From positions 1-60,534 of the forward strand of contig CACMIW010000005.1 of NCBI GenBank assembly GCA_902613845.1: DNA of 60,534 nt, given 5' to 3'. A program made the translations under genes and the position numbers. This document shows, piece by piece, positions 36,387-58,826 of this stretch (position 1 is the first letter of the stretch; each line of letters starts with the position of its first letter). Under the pieces are notes generated by a model. It saw only the letters and a program-made list of their open reading frames with translations, had not been told where the DNA came from and made no database searches. Origin of the DNA: an uncultured Alphaproteobacteria bacterium. Lineage in GTDB: Bacteria; Pseudomonadota; Alphaproteobacteria; HIMB59.

Positions 36387-38252
36387 ATGTCAATTTTAAG
36401 TAAAATTAACCTGCCTAAAGATTTAAAGAAATTATCATTTAATCAATTACGAAAACTTAATGATGAGTTAAGAGATTATACAATTCAAGTAGTATCGAAA
36501 ACAGGAGGTCATTTAGGAGCTTGTTTGGGAGTAATAGAATTAACATCAGCTTTACATTATGTCTTTAATACTCCAAGAGATAAAATTATCTGGGATGTAG
36601 GTCATCAAACTTACCCCCATAAAATATTAACTGGTAGAAAAAGCAAAATTCATACATTAAGAAAAAAAAATGGTTTATCAGGTTTTACTAAAAGATCTGA
36701 GAGCATTTATGATCCTTTTGGAGCTGCACATAGCTCTACTTCTGTTTCAGCCAATTTAGGGATTACGGCTGCCAGAGATATGCTCAATCAAAATTTTGAT
36801 GTTATTAGCATTATTGGTGATGGTGCTATTAGTGCAGGATTGGCTTATGAAGGTCTAAACAATTTAGGGCATTTAAATAAAAATTCCCTGATTATTTTAA
36901 ATGATAATGAAATGTCTATAGCAGAACCAGTAGGTGCAATGAGCAAATATCTTGTAAAACTATTAAGTTCAAAATCATATGAAAGCTTTAGAGATATCAT
37001 AAAAAATTTTACTAAAAGATTACCCAACGAAGTAGGGGATTTTGCAAAAAAAACTGAGGGTTATTTAAAAGGATATTTAACTGGAAATACATTATTTGAA
37101 GAACTTGGTTTGAACTATTTAGGCCCTATTGACGGACACAATCTAAAATTATTAGTTCAATTATTTAAAAAATACAAAAATAAGGAATTACATGGTCCTG
37201 TTTTTTTACATTTAATTACTAAAAAAGGAAAAGGTTACAAACCTGCAGAAAGTTCAAAAGATAAATTTCACGGCGTTTCTTCTTTTAACTTAAAAACTGG
37301 TGTTCAAAATAAATCTAAAGAAAAAACATTCACTAATGTTGTAAGTGATACTCTTTTAAAATTAGCAAAAAAGGATAATAAAATAGTTGCTATCACAGCT
37401 GCTATGCCCTCAGGAACAGGTTTGGATAAATTCAAAGAAATTTTCCCAAATCGTTTCTATGATGTAGGAATAGCAGAACAACATGCTGTAACCTTTGCTG
37501 GAGGTATGGCGACTGAAAAAGTTAAGCCTTTTGTGGCAATATATTCTACCTTTTTGCAAAGGGCATATGATCAAATAATACATGATATTGCAATTCAGTC
37601 TTTGCCAGTTAGATTTTTAATAGATAGATCAGGTTTTGTTGGTGCTGATGGAGCTACTCATGCAGGATCTTTCGATTTGAGTTATTTATGTTGCTTACCA
37701 AATTTCATAGTTATGGCTCCTTCAAGTGGAGAGGAATTAAAGAATATGATTAAATTATCTATGACTCTTAATGACAAACCATCTGCAATCAGATATCCAA
37801 GAAATTTAGCCAATGATTACAATGAAAAAGCTAAGTTTAATAAAATTAAATTGGGTGAAGCAAAACTAGTAAAAAAAGGAAAAAGAATTGCTTTTCTTAG
37901 TTTAGGCACTCGGCTACAAAAAATCTTGGAGGTTTCTGAATTAATTAAAAAAAATTATAAATTTCAATGTAGTGTGTTGGACATGAGATTTGCTAAACCG
38001 ATAGATAAGAAATCCATTAATTCTCTTATAAAAAATCACGAAATTTTTGTAACCATAGAGGAGAACGCAATTGGAGGATTTTCAAGTCAAGTAAACGACT
38101 ATTTGTTAAATGAGTCATCAACAACACCAAAAATTTTAAATTTTTTTATGAAAGATAAATTTATTGATCAATCTGATATTGAGGATCAATACACTATATC
38201 GGGCATATCTTCAAAAAAAATATATGAAAAACTTACTAATTTTTTAAAGTGA
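36387..38252 (+). CDS. dxs: 1-deoxy-D-xylulose-5-phosphate synthase
   Basis: 621 residues. Thiamine diphosphate motif GDGAISAGLAYEGLNN, HQTYPHKILTGR at the active site, and the transketolase-like pyrimidine domain with GIAEQHAVTFAGG. It condenses pyruvate and glyceraldehyde 3-phosphate, the first step of the non-mevalonate isoprenoid pathway, which also supplies the undecaprenyl carrier used by MraY. The 3' end overlaps convergent aroC by 9 bases. Confidence 0.97.
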   Translation: MSILSKINLPKDLKKLSFNQLRKLNDELRDYTIQVVSKTGGHLGACLGVIELTSALHYVFNTPRDKIIWDVGHQTYPHKILTGRKSKIHTLRKKNGLSGFTKRSESIYDPFGAAHSSTSVSANLGITAARDMLNQNFDVISIIGDGAISAGLAYEGLNNLGHLNKNSLIILNDNEMSIAEPVGAMSKYLVKLLSSKSYESFRDIIKNFTKRLPNEVGDFAKKTEGYLKGYLTGNTLFEELGLNYLGPIDGHNLKLLVQLFKKYKNKELHGPVFLHLITKKGKGYKPAESSKDKFHGVSSFNLKTGVQNKSKEKTFTNVVSDTLLKLAKKDNKIVAITAAMPSGTGLDKFKEIFPNRFYDVGIAEQHAVTFAGGMATEKVKPFVAIYSTFLQRAYDQIIHDIAIQSLPVRFLIDRSGFVGADGATHAGSFDLSYLCCLPNFIVMAPSSGEELKNMIKLSMTLNDKPSAIRYPRNLANDYNEKAKFNKIKLGEAKLVKKGKRIAFLSLGTRLQKILEVSELIKKNYKFQCSVLDMRFAKPIDKKSINSLIKNHEIFVTIEENAIGGFSSQVNDYLLNESSTTPKILNFFMKDKFIDQSDIEDQYTISGISSKKIYEKLTNFLK

Positions 38253-39326
38253 TTTTGATTTGTTAATTAGCAATAAATCTGCAATTACAAAATTGGTCAT
38301 AGCAATTCCAACTGGCACTGCTCTAATGCCTACACAAGGATCATGACGTCCTTTAGTTTTGATTTTAGTATTTTTAAAATTCTTTGTAACAGTATTTTTT
38401 TCACTTAACACTGAGCTTGTAGGTTTAACAATATATCTAAAAATAATATCTTGTCCTGAAGAAATACCACCTAATATTCCTCCAGCATGGTTAGTATGAA
38501 ATTTAATTTTCTTATTTTCAAAGTTAATTTGATCAGAACCATTAGTGCCATCATAGTTTACTAAATCAAAACCAGTACCAAACTCTATACCTTTTACAGC
38601 ATTAATGCTCATAATTGCTTTTGATAATTCTGAGTCAAGTTTTTGATATATTGGCTCGCCTATACCTATAGGACAATTTGAGACTCTAACTTCAATTACA
38701 GCACCAAGAGATGAACCTTTTTTTCGATGAGTAAGGATTAGATCTTCCCATTTTTTAACGATGGACTTATTTGGTGCAAAAAAAGGATTTTTGTTAATAA
38801 AATTATTATTCCAATTTAAGTTTTCTATCTTCTCATTTCCAATTTGAATAACAGCACTTGTAACATTTATTTTATTTTTTGAAATTTTTTTTAGAAGTAA
38901 TTCTGAAAGAGCACCTGCAGCAACTCTCATGGCAGTTTCCCTAGCACTAGACCTTCCCCCACCTCTATAATCATAATTTTTATACTTAATAAAATAGGTG
39001 TAATCGGCATGACCAGGTCGAAATTTATTTTTTATATCTGAATAGTCCTTGCTTCTTTGGTCAGAGTTATAAATTATCATTGATATCGGAGCACCAGTGC
39101 TTTTACCATTAAAAACTCCAGAGAGTATATTAACTTCATCTTTCTCTTTTCTTTGTGTTGTAAATTTTGACTGACCTGGTTTTCTTAAATCTAGCCTTGT
39201 TTGAATATATTTTGTGTTAATAGGTATTCCTGCTGGAAAGCCATCAACGACACAACCTATAGCTTCTCCATGACTTTCTCCCCAAGTAGTAAATTTTAAT
39301 AAATTTCCAAAAGAATTATGTGACAT
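38244..39326 (-). CDS. aroC: Chorismate synthase
   Basis: 360 residues, normal length. Signatures: NLLKFTTWGESHGEAIGCVVDG, the FRPGHADYTY region, GGGRSSARETAMRVAAGA, and GGILGGISSGQDI with KGRHDPCVGIRAVPV near the C-terminus. It forms chorismate from EPSP using reduced FMN, the last shared step to aromatic amino acids and folate. It lies 7 bases downstream of fabI on the same strand. Confidence 0.97.
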   Translation of the reverse strand: MSHNSFGNLLKFTTWGESHGEAIGCVVDGFPAGIPINTKYIQTRLDLRKPGQSKFTTQRKEKDEVNILSGVFNGKSTGAPISMIIYNSDQRSKDYSDIKNKFRPGHADYTYFIKYKNYDYRGGGRSSARETAMRVAAGALSELLLKKISKNKINVTSAVIQIGNEKIENLNWNNNFINKNPFFAPNKSIVKKWEDLILTHRKKGSSLGAVIEVRVSNCPIGIGEPIYQKLDSELSKAIMSINAVKGIEFGTGFDLVNYDGTNGSDQINFENKKIKFHTNHAGGILGGISSGQDIIFRYIVKPTSSVLSEKNTVTKNFKNTKIKTKGRHDPCVGIRAVPVGIAMTNFVIADLLLINKSKSL

Positions 39327-39333
39327 GAACTAA

Positions 39334-40155
39334 TTATTTTTTACTAAACTCATTTAATAATCCTGCTACACCTTCAGCTTCATCAACTGCTACCATTCCA
39401 ACTGTATGATAACCGCAATCAACATGGTGAATTTCACCAGTTACACCCGATGAAAGGTCGCTCAAAAGGTAGGCCCCTGTGCTACCAACATCTTCAAGTG
39501 TAACATTTCTCTTTAATGGAGAATTTAGCTCATTCCATTTTAAAATAAATCTAAAATCACCAATACCAGAAGCCGCAAGAGTTTTAATTGGGCCTGCAGA
39601 TATGGCGTTAACTCTTATATTTTTATCTCCCATATCCACAGCAAGATATTTAACTGAAGCCTCAAGTGCTGATTTTGCGACTCCCATTACATTATAGTGT
39701 GGCATAACCTGCTCTGCTCCATAATAAGTTAAAGTTAAAATACTCCCACCATTATCCATTAAATCATAGCAATATTTACAAGACTCAGTGAAGGAATAAC
39801 AAGAAATATTTAAACTATTTAAGAAATTTTCTTTTGATGTATCAACATACTTACCTCTTAGCTCATTTTTATCTGCAAACGCTACGGCGTGAACGAAAAA
39901 ATCCAATTTTCCCCATTTATCTTTAATTTTTTCAAAAGTATTTTTTACTGATCCTTCATCACTAACATCACATTGTATCAATAAATTAGAACCTACAGAT
40001 TTAGCTAAAGGATCTATTCTCTTTAATAGAAGATCATTTTGATAAGTAAAAGCTAATTCAGCACCAAAATTTGCACATTGTTGAGCTATGCCCCAGGCAA
40101 TGGACTTATCATTAGCCACTCCCATTATAAGCCCTTTTTTATTTTTTAAATCCAT
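39334..40155 (-). CDS. fabI: Enoyl-[acyl-carrier-protein] reductase FabI
   Basis: 273 residues, short-chain dehydrogenase fold. The NADH-binding MGVANDKSIAWGIAQ replaces the usual Gly-rich loop as in FabI, and the Tyr-x6-Lys catalytic pair is in MPHYNVMGVAKSALE. NAISAGPIKTLAASGI is typical. It reduces enoyl-ACP in the last step of each fatty-acid elongation round. It diverges from pdxH over 31 bases. Confidence 0.96.
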   Translation of the reverse strand: MDLKNKKGLIMGVANDKSIAWGIAQQCANFGAELAFTYQNDLLLKRIDPLAKSVGSNLLIQCDVSDEGSVKNTFEKIKDKWGKLDFFVHAVAFADKNELRGKYVDTSKENFLNSLNISCYSFTESCKYCYDLMDNGGSILTLTYYGAEQVMPHYNVMGVAKSALEASVKYLAVDMGDKNIRVNAISAGPIKTLAASGIGDFRFILKWNELNSPLKRNVTLEDVGSTGAYLLSDLSSGVTGEIHHVDCGYHTVGMVAVDEAEGVAGLLNEFSKK

Positions 40156-40186
40156 TTTTTGCTAAAATTAATATAATACTCATACC
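40156..40186. promoter_or_regulatory. Short divergent region fabI / pdxH
   Basis: 31 bases between two outward-facing start codons. A TATAAT lies at 40172-40177 on the plus strand, 9 bases before the pdxH ATG, which would give an almost leaderless message. No -35 match is found at the right distance, so this is only a weak promoter candidate. Confidence 0.3.
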
Positions 40187-40774
40187 ATGTCAGATAAATT
40201 AAATCCAATTATTAAGTTTAAAGAATGGTTTGATTTAGCCACTGAAAAAGAGATCAACGATCCTAATGCGATGTGTCTATCAACAGTTGACGATAAAAAT
40301 ACCCCCCATTCAAGGATGGTTCTATTAAAAGATTATAACGATGAAGGTTTTATTTTTTACACAAATTACGATAGCAATAAAGGAAATGACATTTTAAAAA
40401 ATGCTAATGTTTGCCTAAATTTTCATTGGAAGTCATTGTTAAGGCAAATAAGAATAGAGGGTAAAGTAGAAAAAGTCTCAAAAGAAACATCTGATAAATA
40501 TTTTAATTCAAGACATTATTTAAGTCGAATAGGGGCGTGGGCTTCTAATCAATCAAAAGTCCTAAAATCAAGAGATGATTTAGAGAATAAAATTGAATTT
40601 TATAAAAATAAATATCCTGAAAAAGAAAATTTCCCTCGTCCTGATTACTGGGGAGGGTTTATAGTAAAATATTCAAAAATCGAGTTTTGGGAGGATATGC
40701 CTCATAGAATTCACAAAAGAGAAGTCTTTGAGTTTAAAGATAATGATTGGCTATCGTATACCCTTAGCCCTTAG
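40187..40774 (+). CDS. pdxH: Pyridoxamine 5'-phosphate oxidase
   Basis: 195 residues. FMN-binding and catalytic segments: PHSRMVLLKDYNDEGFIFYTNYDSNKG, HWKSLLRQIRIEGKVEK, SRIGAWASNQS and the C-terminal WEDMPHRIHKREVF. It oxidises pyridoxamine/pyridoxine 5'-phosphate to pyridoxal 5'-phosphate. The 3' end overlaps the convergent nucleotidyltransferase gene by 4 bases. Confidence 0.96.
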   Translation: MSDKLNPIIKFKEWFDLATEKEINDPNAMCLSTVDDKNTPHSRMVLLKDYNDEGFIFYTNYDSNKGNDILKNANVCLNFHWKSLLRQIRIEGKVEKVSKETSDKYFNSRHYLSRIGAWASNQSKVLKSRDDLENKIEFYKNKYPEKENFPRPDYWGGFIVKYSKIEFWEDMPHRIHKREVFEFKDNDWLSYTLSP

Positions 40775-41226
40775 TTTTTAAAGTATTCACTCCATCTTTT
40801 TAGCAAATCAGAACTAGAAGACTCTTTGTGATTTCCACCTACACCAAATTTTAATTCAATATTATATATCTTTGCTGTTTCATATTCTAAAATTTTAGCA
40901 GTATCTGATCTATCACCTCCATTAGCAAAAATAATTTTTTCATTTGGATATTTATTTCTTATTTGAATTAACAAATTATTTGCACTTCCCAATTCATCAT
41001 CTTCAAATTCCATAGCTTCATTTACCACTTTTAAGCTATCAACAACATACAATCTATGTTTAATATCCATAAAAAAATTTCCTTTTTTATCAATTAACCA
41101 TTTATTAGAATTTACACCTACGATTAAAAAATTAGAAAACTCTAAACATTCTTTCATCATCATAATATGTCCTGGATGGATGGGATCAAATCCCCCTGAA
41201 ACAACACTGATAATTTTATTTTCCAA
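40771..41226 (-). CDS. Cytidylyltransferase-family nucleotidyltransferase (RfaE2/TagD-like)
   Basis: 151 residues from a TTG start. The HxGH nucleotidyltransferase motif is in GGFDPIHPGHIMMM, followed by the usual NGGDRSD and a C-terminal SSSSDLL in place of the ISST motif. Family members attach CMP or AMP to phosphorylated sugars or glycerol phosphate (heptose-1-P adenylyltransferase, glycerol-3-P cytidylyltransferase). The substrate here is not decided. It overlaps pyrE by 11 bases and is the last gene of the minus-strand operon. Confidence 0.8.
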   Translation of the reverse strand: MENKIISVVSGGFDPIHPGHIMMMKECLEFSNFLIVGVNSNKWLIDKKGNFFMDIKHRLYVVDSLKVVNEAMEFEDDELGSANNLLIQIRNKYPNEKIIFANGGDRSDTAKILEYETAKIYNIELKFGVGGNHKESSSSDLLKRWSEYFKN

Positions 41227-41860
41227 TTGAAATTGACTCTAAATAATTTTTTAAGTTCTTGTAATCTTTATCTGAAATGTAATTTGGAGAAATAGTTAAT
41301 ATATCTCTCCATGATGTGAGATAATTTAAATTCACATTCATTTTAGATATATTTTTTTTAGCTTTAGGGTAAATACCATAGTAAAAAACTACATAAATAT
41401 CTTTAACTTTAAGTTTATTTTGTCTTAAAGCTTTTATGAAATGTAATTTACTTCCCCCATCAGTTGCCATGTCCTCTACTAATATTGACTGATTATTCTT
41501 TTTATACTCTCCCTCTATTAGCTTACCTTTTCCAAACCCTTTAGGGCTCTTTCTTATGTATATCATTGGATATTTCATCTTTTGACACAGAAAGGAAGAG
41601 TAGGGAATACCAGCTGTTTCACCTCCTGCAATAATAGTCGAATTATCTTTATACTTCGATTTAATCTGTTTGCTCATTTCATTAATAATTAATTCTCTTT
41701 CTTTTGGAAATGAAATTAATTTTCTACAATCAACGTAAACAGGACTTTTTTTGCCAGATGTAAGAGTAAATTGTTTTTTGAAGTCTATATTAACGCATCC
41801 AATACTTAACAGTAAGTTTGCTATCTTTTCTTTATTATTTTTGATTTTGACCTTCGACAT
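41216..41860 (-). CDS. pyrE: Orotate phosphoribosyltransferase
   Basis: 214 residues from ATG 41860; a TTG four codons upstream is also possible. Signatures: [14 protein letters not shown], the loop [11 protein letters not shown] and the PRPP-binding [13 protein letters not shown]. It makes orotidine monophosphate in pyrimidine synthesis, the same pathway as carAB in this window. The 5' end overlaps the DUF2256 gene by 40 bases in another frame. Confidence 0.92.
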
Positions 41861-41964
41861 TTTTCTGAACAATATTTAACATCATTCCATACTTTTTCCC
41901 ATTTTTTTCTCCAACTAAATGGTCTTTGGCATACCACACAAATTTTGAAATCTTTTTTATTCAG
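41821..41964 (-). CDS. DUF2256-family small zinc-finger-like protein, CTG start
   Basis: 47 residues, easy to miss. After a stop at the uspA end, the frame reads (M)[18 protein letters not shown], then [18 protein letters not shown] and a short basic tail. Cys-x2-Cys (codons 9 and 12) and Cys-x3-Cys (codons 32 and 36) with the PFSWRKKW core match the DUF2256 pattern. No ATG, GTG or TTG start exists before the first cysteine; CTG at 41964, directly abutting the uspA stop at 41965, is the only sensible start. It overlaps pyrE by 40 bases. Function unknown. Confidence 0.75.
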
Positions 41965-42444
41965 CTAAATAATCTTCTCAATCTCTTTATCTTCTAGATT
42001 ACCATTAATTATAACAAGAGGGCAATGTAACGAGTTAGATTTTTCATATATAAGTTTGTCAATTAAAGGTCCAGGCTTGCCTATATCTTTACTTGTAGCA
42101 AGAATAATAGTTGAATTAGATGAATATTTATTTAAGAAACTTATAAACTCATCGATCTCATTATATTTAAATATTTCAGATTTTGCTTTAATTTTAGATT
42201 TATCTGAGATGTAGTTATGCACTTCTTTATGTTTTAATTTTTCAGTTGTTATTTGATCTATATCCAAAATTTTTTCGGCCCCTGATGTAAGCATCATACC
42301 TTCGCTTGCGCTTTGAATAAAGCTTACAGTAATAATATTTGATTTAGTTATTTTTGCTCTCCTTATAGCAAATTTAACTGCAGTCCACATTTCAGCACTT
42401 TGATCAATAACTACAAAATAATTTCTATTATTATTTTTTTTCAT
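41965..42444 (-). CDS. Universal stress protein (UspA family)
   Basis: 159 residues, single Usp domain. It opens NYFVVIDQSAEMWTAVKFAIRRA and continues with a NIITVSFIQ strand and the C-terminal GKPGPLIDKLIYEKSNSLHCPLVIING, which corresponds to the nucleotide-binding loop region, though the canonical G-x2-G-x9-G spacing is loose. Its ATG overlaps (ATGA) the stop of the shifted membrane-anchor frame upstream, which suggests coupling to that frame. Role within the operon unknown. Confidence 0.8.
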   Translation of the reverse strand: MKKNNNRNYFVVIDQSAEMWTAVKFAIRRAKITKSNIITVSFIQSASEGMMLTSGAEKILDIDQITTEKLKHKEVHNYISDKSKIKAKSEIFKYNEIDEFISFLNKYSSNSTIILATSKDIGKPGPLIDKLIYEKSNSLHCPLVIINGNLEDKEIEKII

Positions 42445-42545
42445 TTTTTTCTAAATATTAAATTTGTAACTAAGCTAAGCAATAATGATATAGCAATCAA
42501 AATTATAATATAAATAAAAGACTCAGTTTTTAACAACTTTTCCAA
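42441..42545 (-). CDS. Detached C-terminal membrane anchor of the Alph_Pro_TM protein
   Basis: 34 codons if read from TTG 42545: EKLLKTESFIYIIILIAIS then a leucine-rich helix end and the basic close NLIFRKK. This looks like the conserved C-terminal helix and FRxK end of TIGR02186 proteins. It lies in the +1 frame relative to the preceding gene, whose frame stops at 42547-42549. It may be translated separately (a GGAGG lies 13 bases upstream of TTG) or, more likely, is the tail of one protein interrupted at the A8 tract. Confidence 0.6.
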   Translation of the reverse strand: MEKLLKTESFIYIIILIAISLLLSLVTNLIFRKK

Positions 42546-42546
42546 T

Positions 42547-43119
42547 TTAAATGAAATTCCTCCTTTTTTTTATTTGCAAGTTTTTAGATACCATCTTAAT
42601 AATTTCATCATTTTTTATCTCGTACATATAAACTTTTATATTTCCAGGTGATATATTATCTGGTATTAAAAATTTTTTTAAAAATAGATTTCCACTTATA
42701 CTTTCAAGCTCCTCTTCTATATACAAATTTTTCACCTTCATTGCTTTTCTTATTTTATGGAGTTCAAGAGAGTGATTACTTATTAATGAATGCCTATCCT
42801 TTAAAATAGAATATAAAAATATTTCATTCAAAGTCTTTTTAGGAGACGTGAAGATCGCAAAAAAACTAGGTTGATTATTCAACTCTTTTGTTTCGTTAAT
42901 CCATAAAAAACCTTCTTTAACTTTTGTTGTCAATTTAACTTTTTTATTCTCTCCTTCAAAAATGAAGATTACATCACTGTCTTTATCTTTATTTCCAAAT
43001 AAAACTACTTCTTTTCCTAAAAAATTTGAGTTTATTTCAATTTCGAATTGATCTAAGGAAAAATTAGATGCAAAAACAATTTTAATAAAAAATATGATTA
43101 TTAAAATATACTTATACAT
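42547..43119 (-). CDS. Alph_Pro_TM (TIGR02186)-family periplasmic protein, frameshifted near the C-terminus
   Basis: 190 residues as read: a signal peptide (about 1-17), then a beta-rich domain with the family segments KEVVLFG, DVIFIFEG and FFAIFTS. The frame ends in KKRRNFI right after a run of eight A (minus strand, 42571-42564). Dropping one A restores a 225-residue protein (42441-43119) with a C-terminal membrane helix and FRKK end, as expected for the family. It overlaps the TauE/SafE gene by 8 bases, a known alphaproteobacterial pairing. Function unknown. Confidence 0.75.
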   Translation of the reverse strand: MYKYILIIIFFIKIVFASNFSLDQFEIEINSNFLGKEVVLFGNKDKDSDVIFIFEGENKKVKLTTKVKEGFLWINETKELNNQPSFFAIFTSPKKTLNEIFLYSILKDRHSLISNHSLELHKIRKAMKVKNLYIEEELESISGNLFLKKFLIPDNISPGNIKVYMYEIKNDEIIKMVSKNLQIKKRRNFI

Positions 43120-44014
43120 AATTTATAATGAATAAGTTCTCAGGTGTTCTAAATAAATCATAAGCTAAAAATGATGAAATAATTAATAGTAACATACCAA
43201 ATGTAACTTTTAAATTTTCTTGATCAAGTATATCAACTATCCTTGCAGCTAGTGCAGCTCCAATAGAGCTACTAACTATTAATCCTAAAGCTAATACAAA
43301 ATCTATATTTTGATTTATGTATATTTGTAAAAATAAAGACACAAAGGATACTATCGTGATATTAAATAGAGATGTCCCTATTACTGAAATAGTTTTCATA
43401 CCTAAAAAATAAATCATACATGGAATAAGTATAAAGCCACCACCAATACCAGTTAGCCCTGTCAACACACCTATAAAAAAACCAATTAAAAGTGGTGCTA
43501 GTACACTTATATATAGTTTAGATTTTCTATACTTAATTTTAAAAGGAAGTCCATGTATCCAAGAATGTTGGTGTAATTTAAATTTTTTATTTTTATGTAC
43601 GATATTAACTTTAGCTGTTTCATAAAGAATAAATACAGCAGTTATAATTAAAAGAATTATATAGATACTATTCAAATAGTTATCAATTAAACCAATATTT
43701 TTTAAATTATTTAGAATCAATACACCAAAAAGTGTCCCCACTAATCCACCGATAACCATTGTTAAGCCCATCTGATAGTCTATGTTTTTTCTTTGAAAAT
43801 GACTTACAACACCAGTTGATGTCGAGGCGAATACTTGAACAGTTGTAGTTCCAACTGCAACAGCTGGAGGAATGCCAACTAGTATCAAAAGAGGAGAGGA
43901 TATAAAACCTCCACCTATGCCAAAGAGTCCAGATATAAAACCAATTCCAACTCCAAGGGAAATTAATATATAAATATTTATGGATATTTCAGCAATAGGT
44001 AGGTAAAAATTCAT
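43112..44014 (-). CDS. TauE/SafE-family membrane permease
   Basis: 300 residues, about eight membrane helices arranged as two repeats. Each repeat carries the family motif: GFISGLFGIGGGFISSPLL near residue 24 and GVLTGLTGIGGGFILIPCM near residue 190. The family exports or imports sulfonates, sulfite or related anions; the substrate is undetermined. It leads the minus-strand operon TauE-Alph_Pro_TM-uspA-DUF2256-pyrE-nucleotidyltransferase and diverges from the DHFR-like gene. Confidence 0.9.
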   Translation of the reverse strand: MNFYLPIAEISINIYILISLGVGIGFISGLFGIGGGFISSPLLILVGIPPAVAVGTTTVQVFASTSTGVVSHFQRKNIDYQMGLTMVIGGLVGTLFGVLILNNLKNIGLIDNYLNSIYIILLIITAVFILYETAKVNIVHKNKKFKLHQHSWIHGLPFKIKYRKSKLYISVLAPLLIGFFIGVLTGLTGIGGGFILIPCMIYFLGMKTISVIGTSLFNITIVSFVSLFLQIYINQNIDFVLALGLIVSSSIGAALAARIVDILDQENLKVTFGMLLLIISSFLAYDLFRTPENLFIINYV

Positions 44015-44058
44015 ATATTGAAATAAAATATTATACTTAAAATTAATAAAATAAATTA

Positions 44059-44592
44059 ATGATTAAATACACTTTAGCATTTGCTTGTTCAAGCGATGGT
44101 TTTATTGCAAAATATTCTGGAGATAACCCATTTGAATGGACTAGCTTGGAAGACAAAAAACACTTAGACAATTTAATAAAGAATCATAAATGGCAAGTTA
44201 TGGGCAGAAAGACTCATGAATTAAATCCAAACGATTCTAGATCAAGAATTATTTTTTCTAGAAAATACCAAAAAATCAAACAAATTAAAAATTCAATAAA
44301 TCAATATTATTTTAATCCAGATATTAATCAGTGGGATGAATTTGAAAATCTTTGCAAAGAAAGTGTTTTAATTTTAGGGGGAACAAGTGTTCATGATTAT
44401 TTCTTGTATGCTGATTTAATTGATGAAATCTTTATTACTATAGAGCCTTTAAAATTTGGAAAAGGCTTACCAGCTTTTACATACATAAATTTTACGGACT
44501 TAGTTCCTTACTTAAAAGAGAGAGGATATCGACATTCTGAAAAAAAAATTAATGATAAGGGCTCTTTGTTAGTTAATTTTTCAAAAACTTAG
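44059..44592 (+). CDS. Dihydrofolate reductase / RibD C-terminal domain-like protein
   Basis: 177 residues. The opening FACSSDGFIAK, the NADPH-binding VMGRKTHEL and VLILGGTSVHDYFLYADLIDEIFITIEP give the DHFR/RibD-C fold. The active-site pattern is not that of canonical FolA, so a pterin or flavin-precursor reductase or another role is possible. It is short and single-domain. The 3' end overlaps mobA by 12 bases, placing it at the edge of the molybdenum cofactor genes. Confidence 0.7.
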   Translation: MIKYTLAFACSSDGFIAKYSGDNPFEWTSLEDKKHLDNLIKNHKWQVMGRKTHELNPNDSRSRIIFSRKYQKIKQIKNSINQYYFNPDINQWDEFENLCKESVLILGGTSVHDYFLYADLIDEIFITIEPLKFGKGLPAFTYINFTDLVPYLKERGYRHSEKKINDKGSLLVNFSKT

Positions 44593-45174
44593 TAGTTCTG
44601 TATAATCATTTTTGTCGTTTACATTAAAAAATTCTATTTTTTTATTTTTTTTAAAATTTATATAATCAAATCCAATTTCTTCAGCAAATTTCATAATTTT
44701 ATAACCATTATTTTTTAAAAGGACTTCATTTAATTCCATAAATATTTTTGATGACCAAAAAGAGAACATTGGTTCGATAATATTATCAATCTTACAAATA
44801 TAAACTTTACTCTTTTTTTCTGTAATTGAGATAAAATTATCTATAATACCTGTGTTTATTATTGGGGCATCAGTGGGAAAAAGTGCAAACCATAAATCCT
44901 CTTTTGAGTTTTTATATAGATCAAGAGCGCTATGTAACCCAGCTAGTGGCCCTTTGTAACCGCCAATTTTATCACTTACAACTTTATAACCAAATATTTT
45001 GTACTTACTGATATCTCTATTAGCGTTAATAATAATCTCATTAGACTTTTCTTTAAGACTTTCTATTAAAATTTCAATAAAAAACTTATCTTTAATTTTT
45101 AAAAAACTTTTATTTTCATAACCCATTCTAGAGGATTTACCACCCGTTAGTATTATAGATACAAGCTTACTCAT
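44581..45174 (-). CDS. mobA: Molybdenum cofactor guanylyltransferase
   Basis: 197 residues. The GTP-binding loop ILTGGKSSRMGYENKSFL, the GPLAGLHSALD segment and LFPTDAPI are the MobA signatures. It adds GMP to molybdopterin to make the bis-MGD cofactor that FdhA needs. It overlaps fdhD by 8 bases on the same strand, so cofactor synthesis and formate dehydrogenase maturation are co-transcribed. Confidence 0.92.
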   Translation of the reverse strand: MSKLVSIILTGGKSSRMGYENKSFLKIKDKFFIEILIESLKEKSNEIIINANRDISKYKIFGYKVVSDKIGGYKGPLAGLHSALDLYKNSKEDLWFALFPTDAPIINTGIIDNFISITEKKSKVYICKIDNIIEPMFSFWSSKIFMELNEVLLKNNGYKIMKFAEEIGFDYINFKKNKKIEFFNVNDKNDYTELLSF

Positions 45175-45979
45175 CTTTGGTATATCTAAATTCTCCAGAT
45201 AAAATATTTAACCTTTTACCTCTAATTCTTCCAATCATTGTTAAATTTTTCTTTCTAGCTATTTCAACTGCCCAAGCAGTGAAACCTGATCGAGATAATA
45301 GTATTGGTATTTCCATTTTGATACATTTCAATACCATTTCACTTGTCAGCCTGCCAGTAGTGTAAAAAGACATTTCTTTTGCGTCTATTTTCTTATCAAT
45401 TATCAAACCAGCAATTTTATCAACAGCATTATGTCTTCCCACATCTTCAAAATAATACAAAGGTTTATCTCCCTGACATAAGACGCAACCGTGTATTGCA
45501 CCTACAGATAAATATAAACTTGGCTCAGTATTAATTTTTTTGGATAAATTCATAAGCTGTTGATGATCTATTCTTATTTTTTTATTTAAGGAAATGGTGT
45601 TTATTTCCTCAAATAAGTCTCCAAATACAGTCCCTTGTGCACAACCAGAAGTATTTACTTTCTTCTTTAATTTTTCTTCATAATTAGTTTTACTCTTTGT
45701 TCTCACAACAACTGTCTTTAGGTCTTTATGAAACTCAATCTTTTTTACATCGTCTATATTATTAAGCATCCCCTGATTGAACAAATAACCTATAGCTAAA
45801 TATTTTGGATAATCTCCTATAGTCATTATTGTCACTATTTCTTGGTTGTTTAAGTATAGCGTGAGTGGTTTTTCTTCAATGATTGGAATTTTTGTTATTT
45901 CGCCTTTTTCATTAATTGATTTTTTTAATTTAAATAAAGATCTGTTATTTACACTTGGTTTGATTAAAAAATCTGTCAT
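45167..45979 (-). CDS. fdhD: Formate dehydrogenase accessory sulfurtransferase FdhD
   Basis: 270 residues from ATG 45979; the longer TTG-type frame to 46018 would run into mobB. Motifs: TIGDYPKYLAIGYLFNQG, TSGCAQGT with one conserved cysteine (Cys113) where E. coli has C-x2-C, AIHGCVLCQ, FEDVGRHNAVDKIAG and TTGRLTSEMVLK. FdhD passes sulfur from a desulfurase to the bis-MGD metal of formate dehydrogenase, which is required for activity. It diverges from mobB across 29 bases. Confidence 0.94.
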   Translation of the reverse strand: MTDFLIKPSVNNRSLFKLKKSINEKGEITKIPIIEEKPLTLYLNNQEIVTIMTIGDYPKYLAIGYLFNQGMLNNIDDVKKIEFHKDLKTVVVRTKSKTNYEEKLKKKVNTSGCAQGTVFGDLFEEINTISLNKKIRIDHQQLMNLSKKINTEPSLYLSVGAIHGCVLCQGDKPLYYFEDVGRHNAVDKIAGLIIDKKIDAKEMSFYTTGRLTSEMVLKCIKMEIPILLSRSGFTAWAVEIARKKNLTMIGRIRGKRLNILSGEFRYTKDE

Positions 45980-46008
45980 TTTTTTCTTGATTGTATTATG
46001 GTGACAAG

Positions 46009-46497
46009 GTGAAAACAATAGCTGTTATTGGATGGAAAAATAGTGGCAAAACTACTTTAGTGAGTAATTTAGTAAAATTTTTTAAAGAAAATAAAATAAA
46101 AGTTGGTGTGGTAAAACATGCTCATCATTCTTTTGACATTGATCATCCTAATACAGATAGCTATAAAATTAGAAAATCCGGAGCATATAAAACTACACTA
46201 GTATCAGATAAAAGACTTGCATTCATAGAAGAGAAAGCTGAGTCACATATTAATTTAGAACGTTTGGTAGAAATTAACAAAGATTGTGATTTGCTAATAT
46301 TTGAAGGGTTTAAGAGATTTGATGATTTGATAAAGTTAGAAGTAAGCTTACAAAAAAATAACAAAGACTACCTCTACAAATCTATAAATAATGTTAAATA
46401 TATTGTTACAGACGATAATATTGATCATCCAATTCAGACCTTTAATCACAGTCAAATAGAAGAAATTGCCTCTAAAATATATTATGAAAACTCCTAG
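46009..46497 (+). CDS. mobB: Molybdopterin-guanine dinucleotide biosynthesis protein MobB
   Basis: 162 residues from GTG 46009 (a TTG at 45991 is less likely). It opens VKTIAVIGWKNSGKTTLVS, a P-loop GTPase start, followed by KHAHHSFDIDHPNTDSYKIRKSGA and LLIFEGFKRF, all typical of MobB. It assists MobA in MGD synthesis and delivery. It overlaps moeA by 14 bases and forms the start of the rightward moco unit. Confidence 0.92.
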   Translation: MKTIAVIGWKNSGKTTLVSNLVKFFKENKIKVGVVKHAHHSFDIDHPNTDSYKIRKSGAYKTTLVSDKRLAFIEEKAESHINLERLVEINKDCDLLIFEGFKRFDDLIKLEVSLQKNNKDYLYKSINNVKYIVTDDNIDHPIQTFNHSQIEEIASKIYYENS

Positions 46498-47662
46498 GCT
46501 AATATCTTTCAAACTTGCGCAAAAAATAATTATTCGGGAAAAAAAGAAGTTATTTCAAGAGTCTAAGATTAAATTAAAGGAAGCACATAATACAGTAGCA
46601 TCAAGAACAATTACTTCACCAATAAATCTACCCTTACAAAATACTGCAGGATTAGATGGTTATATTGTTTCTAATAAAAATCTCAACAAAGTGTCAATAT
46701 CTAATAAGCTTCTAAATGCTGGACATTCATATAAAAGATTAAATCATAATTTAGCCTATAAAATAAATACAGGAGGTATTATCCCACAAAACTTTAAAAA
46801 TTTTATTTCATTAGAAAACGCAAAAGTTGAGGGGAAAAATCTATTAGTCCAATATTCAAAAATATCTAATAAAGATATAAAAAAAAAAGGTGAGGATTTA
46901 AAAAAAAATAAAATATTGATAAAAAAAAATGAAAAAATTGATTTCATAAAAATTGCATTACTTTCATCAGTAGGGATAACAAATTTATGGGTATATAAAA
47001 CTTTGAGAGTTGCTGTCGTATCCTCAGGAAATGAATTAATAAAATCTGGCAAAAAAATAAATGATCATCAAGTATATGACTCAAACAAATATCAAATAAT
47101 TCATTTTTTAAAGAAATTTAATATAAGTGTTCATGACTTAGGTATTTTAAAAGACGATGAAATAAAAGTTGATAAATTTTATAAAAAAAATCAAAATAAA
47201 TTTGATATTATAATTAGTTCAGGTGGCTCCTCATTTAGCTCTAAAGATTACATATCGTCATATCTAAGTCAAAACACTGAACTTCTTTTTAAATATGTAA
47301 GAATTCAACCAGGTCGACCTGTAATTTTTTCAAAACTAAAATTCAATTATTATTTTTCACTTCCAGGAAATCCATTAGCTGTTTTCACTAATTTATTTTT
47401 TTTAGTAAGTTTATTTATAGATCCTTCTCGCAAAGATAATTCTAGCATCACCAAATTTTACCAATCTGGATTTTCAGAAAATAAAAAATCTAATTTAACA
47501 AAATTTTATCGTGTGAAATTATCTAAAAATATACTTTATACTCATAACTCAAAAGGTTCTGCAAAACTAATTTCTCTTTCTGAGGCAGATGGGCTAGCGT
47601 TTGTCCCTGAAGGAAATGATAAAATTAAAAAAGGCGAAAAGATTAGATTTATTGAATTTTAA
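46484..47662 (+). CDS. moeA: Molybdopterin molybdenumtransferase
   Basis: 392 residues from ATG 46484, which lies inside mobB; the longer TTG frame from 46466 is unlikely. Motifs: NTAGLDGYIV, VSSGNELIKSG, ISSGGSSFSSKDY and QPGRPVIFSKL with SLPGNPLAVFTN. It inserts molybdate (or tungstate) into adenylylated molybdopterin. Its 3' end overlaps the convergent tusA-like gene by 14 bases. moaA-E and mogA are not in the window. Confidence 0.93.
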   Translation: MKTPRLISFKLAQKIIIREKKKLFQESKIKLKEAHNTVASRTITSPINLPLQNTAGLDGYIVSNKNLNKVSISNKLLNAGHSYKRLNHNLAYKINTGGIIPQNFKNFISLENAKVEGKNLLVQYSKISNKDIKKKGEDLKKNKILIKKNEKIDFIKIALLSSVGITNLWVYKTLRVAVVSSGNELIKSGKKINDHQVYDSNKYQIIHFLKKFNISVHDLGILKDDEIKVDKFYKKNQNKFDIIISSGGSSFSSKDYISSYLSQNTELLFKYVRIQPGRPVIFSKLKFNYYFSLPGNPLAVFTNLFFLVSLFIDPSRKDNSSITKFYQSGFSENKKSNLTKFYRVKLSKNILYTHNSKGSAKLISLSEADGLAFVPEGNDKIKKGEKIRFIEF

Positions 47663-58809: not shown

Positions 58810-58826
58810 TTAGGGAGAGACAAAAA

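Follow-up and report, generated by a model that had tools for sequence, protein, structure and literature searches.

In the 60,534-nt stretch of DNA analysed here (the window, part of contig C5 of genome G000), a gene for a PF09608 (Alph_Pro_TM) protein loses its reading frame at a run of eight A, which leaves a predicted C-terminal membrane anchor out of frame. Judged by sequence comparison, this frame break is private to the window genome among the genomes compared, and we consider it very probable that it represents a private, single-base change in homopolymer length and not a programmed element. A recent replication-slippage mutation and an amplification, sequencing or assembly error appear about equally likely as its source.

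An eight-A run separates a PF09608 domain from its predicted membrane anchor

The following features of the window are considered.

42547..43119, minus strand: truncated PF09608 (Alph_Pro_TM) ORF, 190 aa (profile match, hydropathy)
42564..42571, minus strand: eight-A run, site of the frame loss (read in the sequence)
42441..42563, minus strand: out-of-frame tail of 40 codons plus stop, with a predicted membrane helix and an FRKK end (homology to the C-terminus of intact relatives, hydropathy)
42441..42444, minus strand: ATGA overlap joining the tail stop codon to the Usp-like start codon (sequence; relatives)
41965..42444, minus strand: Usp-like ORF, 159 aa, downstream (below the Usp cut-off here, above it in an order relative)
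43112..44014, minus strand: TauE/SafE-family permease ORF, upstream (profile match, 170.9 bits)

The 190-codon ORF (43119..42547, minus strand) encodes a protein ending in LQIKKRRNFI and closes with a stop codon whose last base lies 17 bases past the eight-A run. The segment from 42441 to 43119 comprises 679 bases, or 226 codons plus one base, and the frame that opens at 42563, read to 42441, encodes GGISFKLEKLLKTESFIYIIILIAISLLLSLVTNLIFRKK followed by a stop. The TGA of this tail forms an ATGA overlap with the start codon of the Usp-like gene (42444..41965), which begins 102 bases past the premature stop. At the other end of the gene, the permease ORF overlaps the PF09608 gene start by 8 bases. 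The run at 42571-42564, the KKRRNFI end, the length of 679 bases and the helix and FRKK end of the shifted frame were all re-read as an earlier note on this DNA had described them.

The 190-aa product matched PF09608 at 73.3 bits (cut-off 24.5) over profile positions 5-188 of 227. Positions 189-227 are missing from the ORF as assembled, the anchor being in the other reading frame. Against NCBIfam, no model matched at 1e-3, TIGR02186 included; an intact congener, with 34.9 bits, and an order relative, with 130.2 bits, likewise remained below the TIGR02186 cut-off of 255.25 bits. The TIGR02186 label given earlier thus applies in a loose sense only. The features shared with PF09608/TIGR02186 proteins are a signal-like N-terminus, a domain at profile positions 5-188 and an anchor, here out of frame. 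For the 190-aa ORF, we infer a hydrophobic, signal-like N-terminal segment followed by an extracytoplasmic part. Literature searches for TIGR02186 and for Alph_Pro_TM/PF09608 returned nothing.

The downstream neighbour had been called uspA, a label that is weak in the window, where the ORF scores 14.1 bits against a Usp cut-off of 24, and firmer for its counterpart in the order relative L002 (26.6 bits). A Usp-like gene directly follows the PF09608 gene in L002, and in a second relative, L027, a Usp-like gene is also next, as in the window. In L002, the place of the permease is taken by a 139-residue ORF (L002:2243-2662, minus strand) with no Pfam match at E <=1.

The tail has a peak 19-residue hydropathy of 2.78. 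Among 17,262 stretches of 120 bases sampled from the two strands, the frame read was free of stops in 3,207; in 17 of these the hydropathy also reached the peak of the tail, true membrane proteins included. On the evidence of homology, the tail is a genuine C-terminal anchor, because 39 other same-genus homologues carry it in frame, and this homology to the C-terminus of relatives rules out a chance reading. Searched alone, the tail gave no PF09608 match. A sub-threshold similarity to SieB (E 0.0098, 15.9 bits against a cut-off of 26) was disregarded as hydrophobic likeness.

Related genomes read in frame into the tail

The close relatives available for comparison are, we presume, marine HIMB59-group genomes obtained from single cells; one of them, G030, is a single contig of 1,410,127 bases. 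The ORF was matched in 40 of 52 genomes of the genus, the window's own included, and the frame continues into the tail in all 39 others. The frame also runs into the tail in G074, where the gene start is cut by a contig end. In an order-wide search of 69 genomes (requested completeness at least 80%), PF09608 was matched in 58; all 57 matches besides the window reach profile position 227, and the window match alone stops at 188. The frame break is therefore conserved in none of the homologues, with 0 of 39 genus and 0 of 57 order matches ending before the tail. The earlier note had named, as an outcome that would overturn its reading, a normal 190-residue end and a tail lacking homology; we found a homologous tail, into which the relatives read.

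Tract length was compared in related genomes, as proposed in the same note. Among the 29 nearest relatives (77-96% identity), the run consists of seven A in 27 and six A in two, and none has eight. Eight A are found in five of 10 more distant genus homologues, in frame and in a different codon context. The ATGA overlap at the tail stop is common to all 27 near relatives listed, this comparison covering 27 of the 29 (L052 and L076, whose starts are incomplete, were left out). This bears out the proposal that the operon is fitted to the shifted frame.

Any homopolymer indel that is very recent or artefactual would leave an out-of-frame domain that still fits the operon perfectly, and it is the comparison with relatives that reveals whether such a break is private. 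Since the break was seen in one genome only, it looks more like the outcome of a chance mutation of recent date, or of a sequencing slip, than like a gene-control device, and both a recent mutation and an assembly error, which had been offered earlier as options, are valid. For frameshifts seen as singletons, an indel mutation or a sequencing error is given as the likely cause in the GeneTack survey (PMC3711429). The H-pseudo/error class, as described there, resembles the present case in its restriction to a single genome, a poly-A run of 7 or more where the frame breaks and an otherwise intact gene; among the features that we tested, no difference was found.

In relatives with an intact gene, the predicted protein begins with a signal-like segment, continues with an extracytoplasmic domain and ends in a membrane anchor. 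In the window assembly, the A run is longer than in the nearest relatives, which ends the frame at codon 190 and leaves the anchor in another one. The extra base may be a slipped-strand mutation carried by the sampled cell or its population, or it may stem from an amplification, sequencing or assembly error. If real, the change would probably yield a soluble, unanchored extracytoplasmic product and may weaken translational coupling to the Usp-like gene.

The 12 genus genomes without a match to the ORF were all queried with the two neighbouring genes, TauE-like and Usp-like. Two of them, G015 and G024, were matched (in G024 the TauE-like match is only 28% identical), while the other 10 gave no match. 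In both, a contig edge lies at the operon, and a tail-like, in-frame reading extends to the Usp-like start. Four further genes of the region were searched in eight of the 12, with G001, G016, G034 and G064 covered by the two neighbours. G014 and G023 have the 360-aa gene (window 38244-39326), and their contigs end 1,638 and 1,851 bases past its start; these ends precede the expected operon, given that the corresponding distance to the Usp-like stop in the window is 2,639 bases. For G005, G018, G028 and G032 (73-92% complete), all six region genes (window 38244-46018) were unmatched or gave weak, paralogue-like matches. We read these four as assembly gaps, although the whole block is possibly missing. 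Gene loss within the genus was considered and rejected, as no clean loss was seen among the eight flank-tested genomes, where the absence in every case appears to reflect an assembly gap or a contig end. One of the weak, paralogue-like matches, in G023 (L138, G023:C1:49243-49725), is to the 218-residue ORF of the window (41216-41872) and has one in-frame TAG.

Substitutions in the head and tail of the gene

Sites unique to one sequence were compared between the window and 19 close relatives over 549 bases of head and 123 bases of tail. In the window, 10 unique sites fall in the head (four silent and six residue-changing) and none in the tail, where about two would be expected at the head rate. 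A tail without a unique site is also found in 14 of the 19 relatives. Compared directly with the window, each of the five nearest relatives has between one and three silent changes in the tail and no altered residue, and tail residues are unchanged in 14 of the 19. The tail is thus conserved in general, and its intactness hardly discriminates between a recent event, an artefact and continued use, and we dropped the undamaged tail as proof of either recency or use. The window lineage does not seem especially young, since its unique head sites outnumber those of 17 of the 19 relatives.

The same sites bear on the idea that selection in this lineage has favoured the truncated 190-residue product as a new, functional soluble protein. 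Both the excess of unique head sites and the six residue changes among 10 could be read in its favour. That proportion is, however, similar in the controls, which together have 52 residue-changing and 38 silent unique sites in the head. In a low-confidence AlphaFold2 model (mean pLDDT 49.2), built for an intact congener, the last strand spans 172-184 and a single helix 191-224. According to this model, the break would fall between the two and remove the anchor but little else; the domain could survive truncation because the break follows its last predicted strand. The anchor is nevertheless conserved order-wide, and we regard a selected soluble form as highly improbable.

Homopolymer runs on contig C5

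We next considered whether the break might be one of many on an error-prone contig. C5 consists of the window and 52,162 further bases, and accounts for 112,696 of the 1,275,251 bases of the assembly. ORFs of at least 90 aa from the congener G004 were matched to C5 at >70% identity and counted as full length when at least 90% was found in one piece. Of 161 such ORFs, 125 were matched, and 120 of these were full length. The remaining five are two contig-end genes, one ORF matching from residue 18 (probably a start difference), one antisense shadow ORF lying over a longer ORF, and the PF09608 gene, which is thus the only frameshift found on C5 among the 125 matched ORFs, in a census blind to breaks within the final 10% of a gene, to ORFs below 90 aa and to the 36 unmatched G004 ORFs. 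In the reverse direction, 120 of 121 matched C5 ORFs were full length in G004. The exception reflects a one-base frameshift in G004 itself (L123:3342-4736, on G004:C2), near residue 411 of a 464-residue gene whose C5 homologue lies at 86246-87640, outside the window; we take this gene to resemble a phosphohexose mutase. Among the 65 ORFs given for the window, those with matches were full length in G020 (63/63) and in G022 (60/60).

The homopolymers themselves were also compared. Among A/T runs of at least 6 on C5 that aligned to G004, the aligned length is unchanged in 750 of 762 (within-run substitutions ignored). Nine of the 12 length-changed runs differ by a non-multiple of three, among them the run in the PF09608 gene and one at 58822, outside the listed ORFs. 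A raised rate of homopolymer indels elsewhere on C5, as error would predict, was not found. Frame breaks were seen in one of 125 matched ORFs on C5 and in one of 244, a small sample, over three congener regions. Homopolymers are well assembled on C5, and such breaks are rare but present. Because the C5 homopolymers look clean against G004, random error is not the obvious default.

Long A runs are frequent in this sequence, which has a GC content of 28% in the window. On the sense strand of C5 ORFs, we counted 69 A8 runs (68 besides that of the PF09608 gene), 32 A9 and 7 A10. Eight A in a row are therefore not unusual in themselves, as the five distant homologues with an in-frame eight-A run also indicate. 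Eight-base A/T runs lie inside ORFs in 79 of 82 cases and longer ones in 45 of 51, compared with a coding share of 96% of bases; the coding share falls only mildly with run length.

These counts speak to phase variation, by which reversible replication slippage at the tract would switch between anchored and soluble forms. The tract is placed between domain and anchor, as a switch of this kind would have it, and environment-exposed proteins are described as typical targets in the GeneTack survey (PMC3711429). The off-state was found in none of the 39 other genus genomes, however, and runs of equal length are common in C5 ORFs, yet no further break was found on C5. We consider phase variation extremely improbable.

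Slippage at the eight-A run

The earlier note had also raised slippage-rescued expression, in which a genuine eight-A allele would still yield some anchored protein because RNA polymerase or the ribosome drops one base often enough. Several observations are compatible with this. The genome is AT-rich, and the tail frame is unspoiled, with its lack of window-unique sites also fitting a tail that is still translated. Frameshifted genes of Blochmannia and Buchnera provide a precedent from AT-rich endosymbionts; both shared and private poly-A frameshifts without decay are reported for Blochmannia, perhaps corrected by slippage (PMC3017870). In Citrobacter rodentium, a run of 11 A in tssM is associated with ~20% frameshifting (PMC4256274). 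A runs >7 are named among programmed transcriptional realignment tracts in the GeneTack survey (PMC3711429). In AT-rich Buchnera, the commonest transcription deletion is of a single base and rises with run length (PMC5574713).

Other evidence argues against rescue. None of the 39 other matched same-genus genomes has the frame break. Restoring the frame would require the loss of one A or the gain of two, and the loss of one base is the rarer polymerase slip: among Buchnera transcription errors, 151 of 157 insertions and 16 of 57 deletions were in homopolymers, and homopolymer deletions are rarer in E. coli than in Buchnera (PMC5574713). A -1 ribosomal slip would enter the third frame, which stops after ten codons past the run. 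Eight bases are also fewer than the nine at which selection against A/T runs appears in many bacteria (PMC1088944). Sense A8, A9 and A10 runs are abundant in C5 ORFs, and therefore a large fraction of the genes would be perturbed if slippage at A8 were efficient.

The endosymbiont cases resemble the window in the AT-rich genome, the single poly-A indel and the absence of downstream decay. They differ in that tracts of at least 9 are numerous there, reaching 12 (PMC3017870), compared with eight A in the window; further, the window break is present in no relative, and its host is presumably a free-living marine bacterium. Rescue by slippage is thus unlikely. As a maintained device it is poorly supported, given that the break is private and equally long or longer A runs are many in C5 ORFs. 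We consider it very unlikely that the eight-A allele is both real and fixed in the species, tolerated through RNA polymerase stutter at A8 that produces a mix of soluble and anchored protein. Such an allele would be a free-living counterpart, in an AT-rich, streamlined host, of the slippage-rescued frameshifts of insect endosymbionts. Were A8 rescue to operate in a marine lineage that is free-living, AT-rich ocean genomes would hold many seeming pseudogenes in need of re-reading; we do not favour this, and retain a private change in homopolymer length as the best explanation.

Longer sense-strand runs also occur elsewhere in the window. A9-A10 runs lie within its ORFs at, for example, 12616, 20048, 21339, 26071, 30040, 34685 and 46879, with little sign of avoidance, and the gene at 46466-47662 has three A9-A10 runs within 60 bases.
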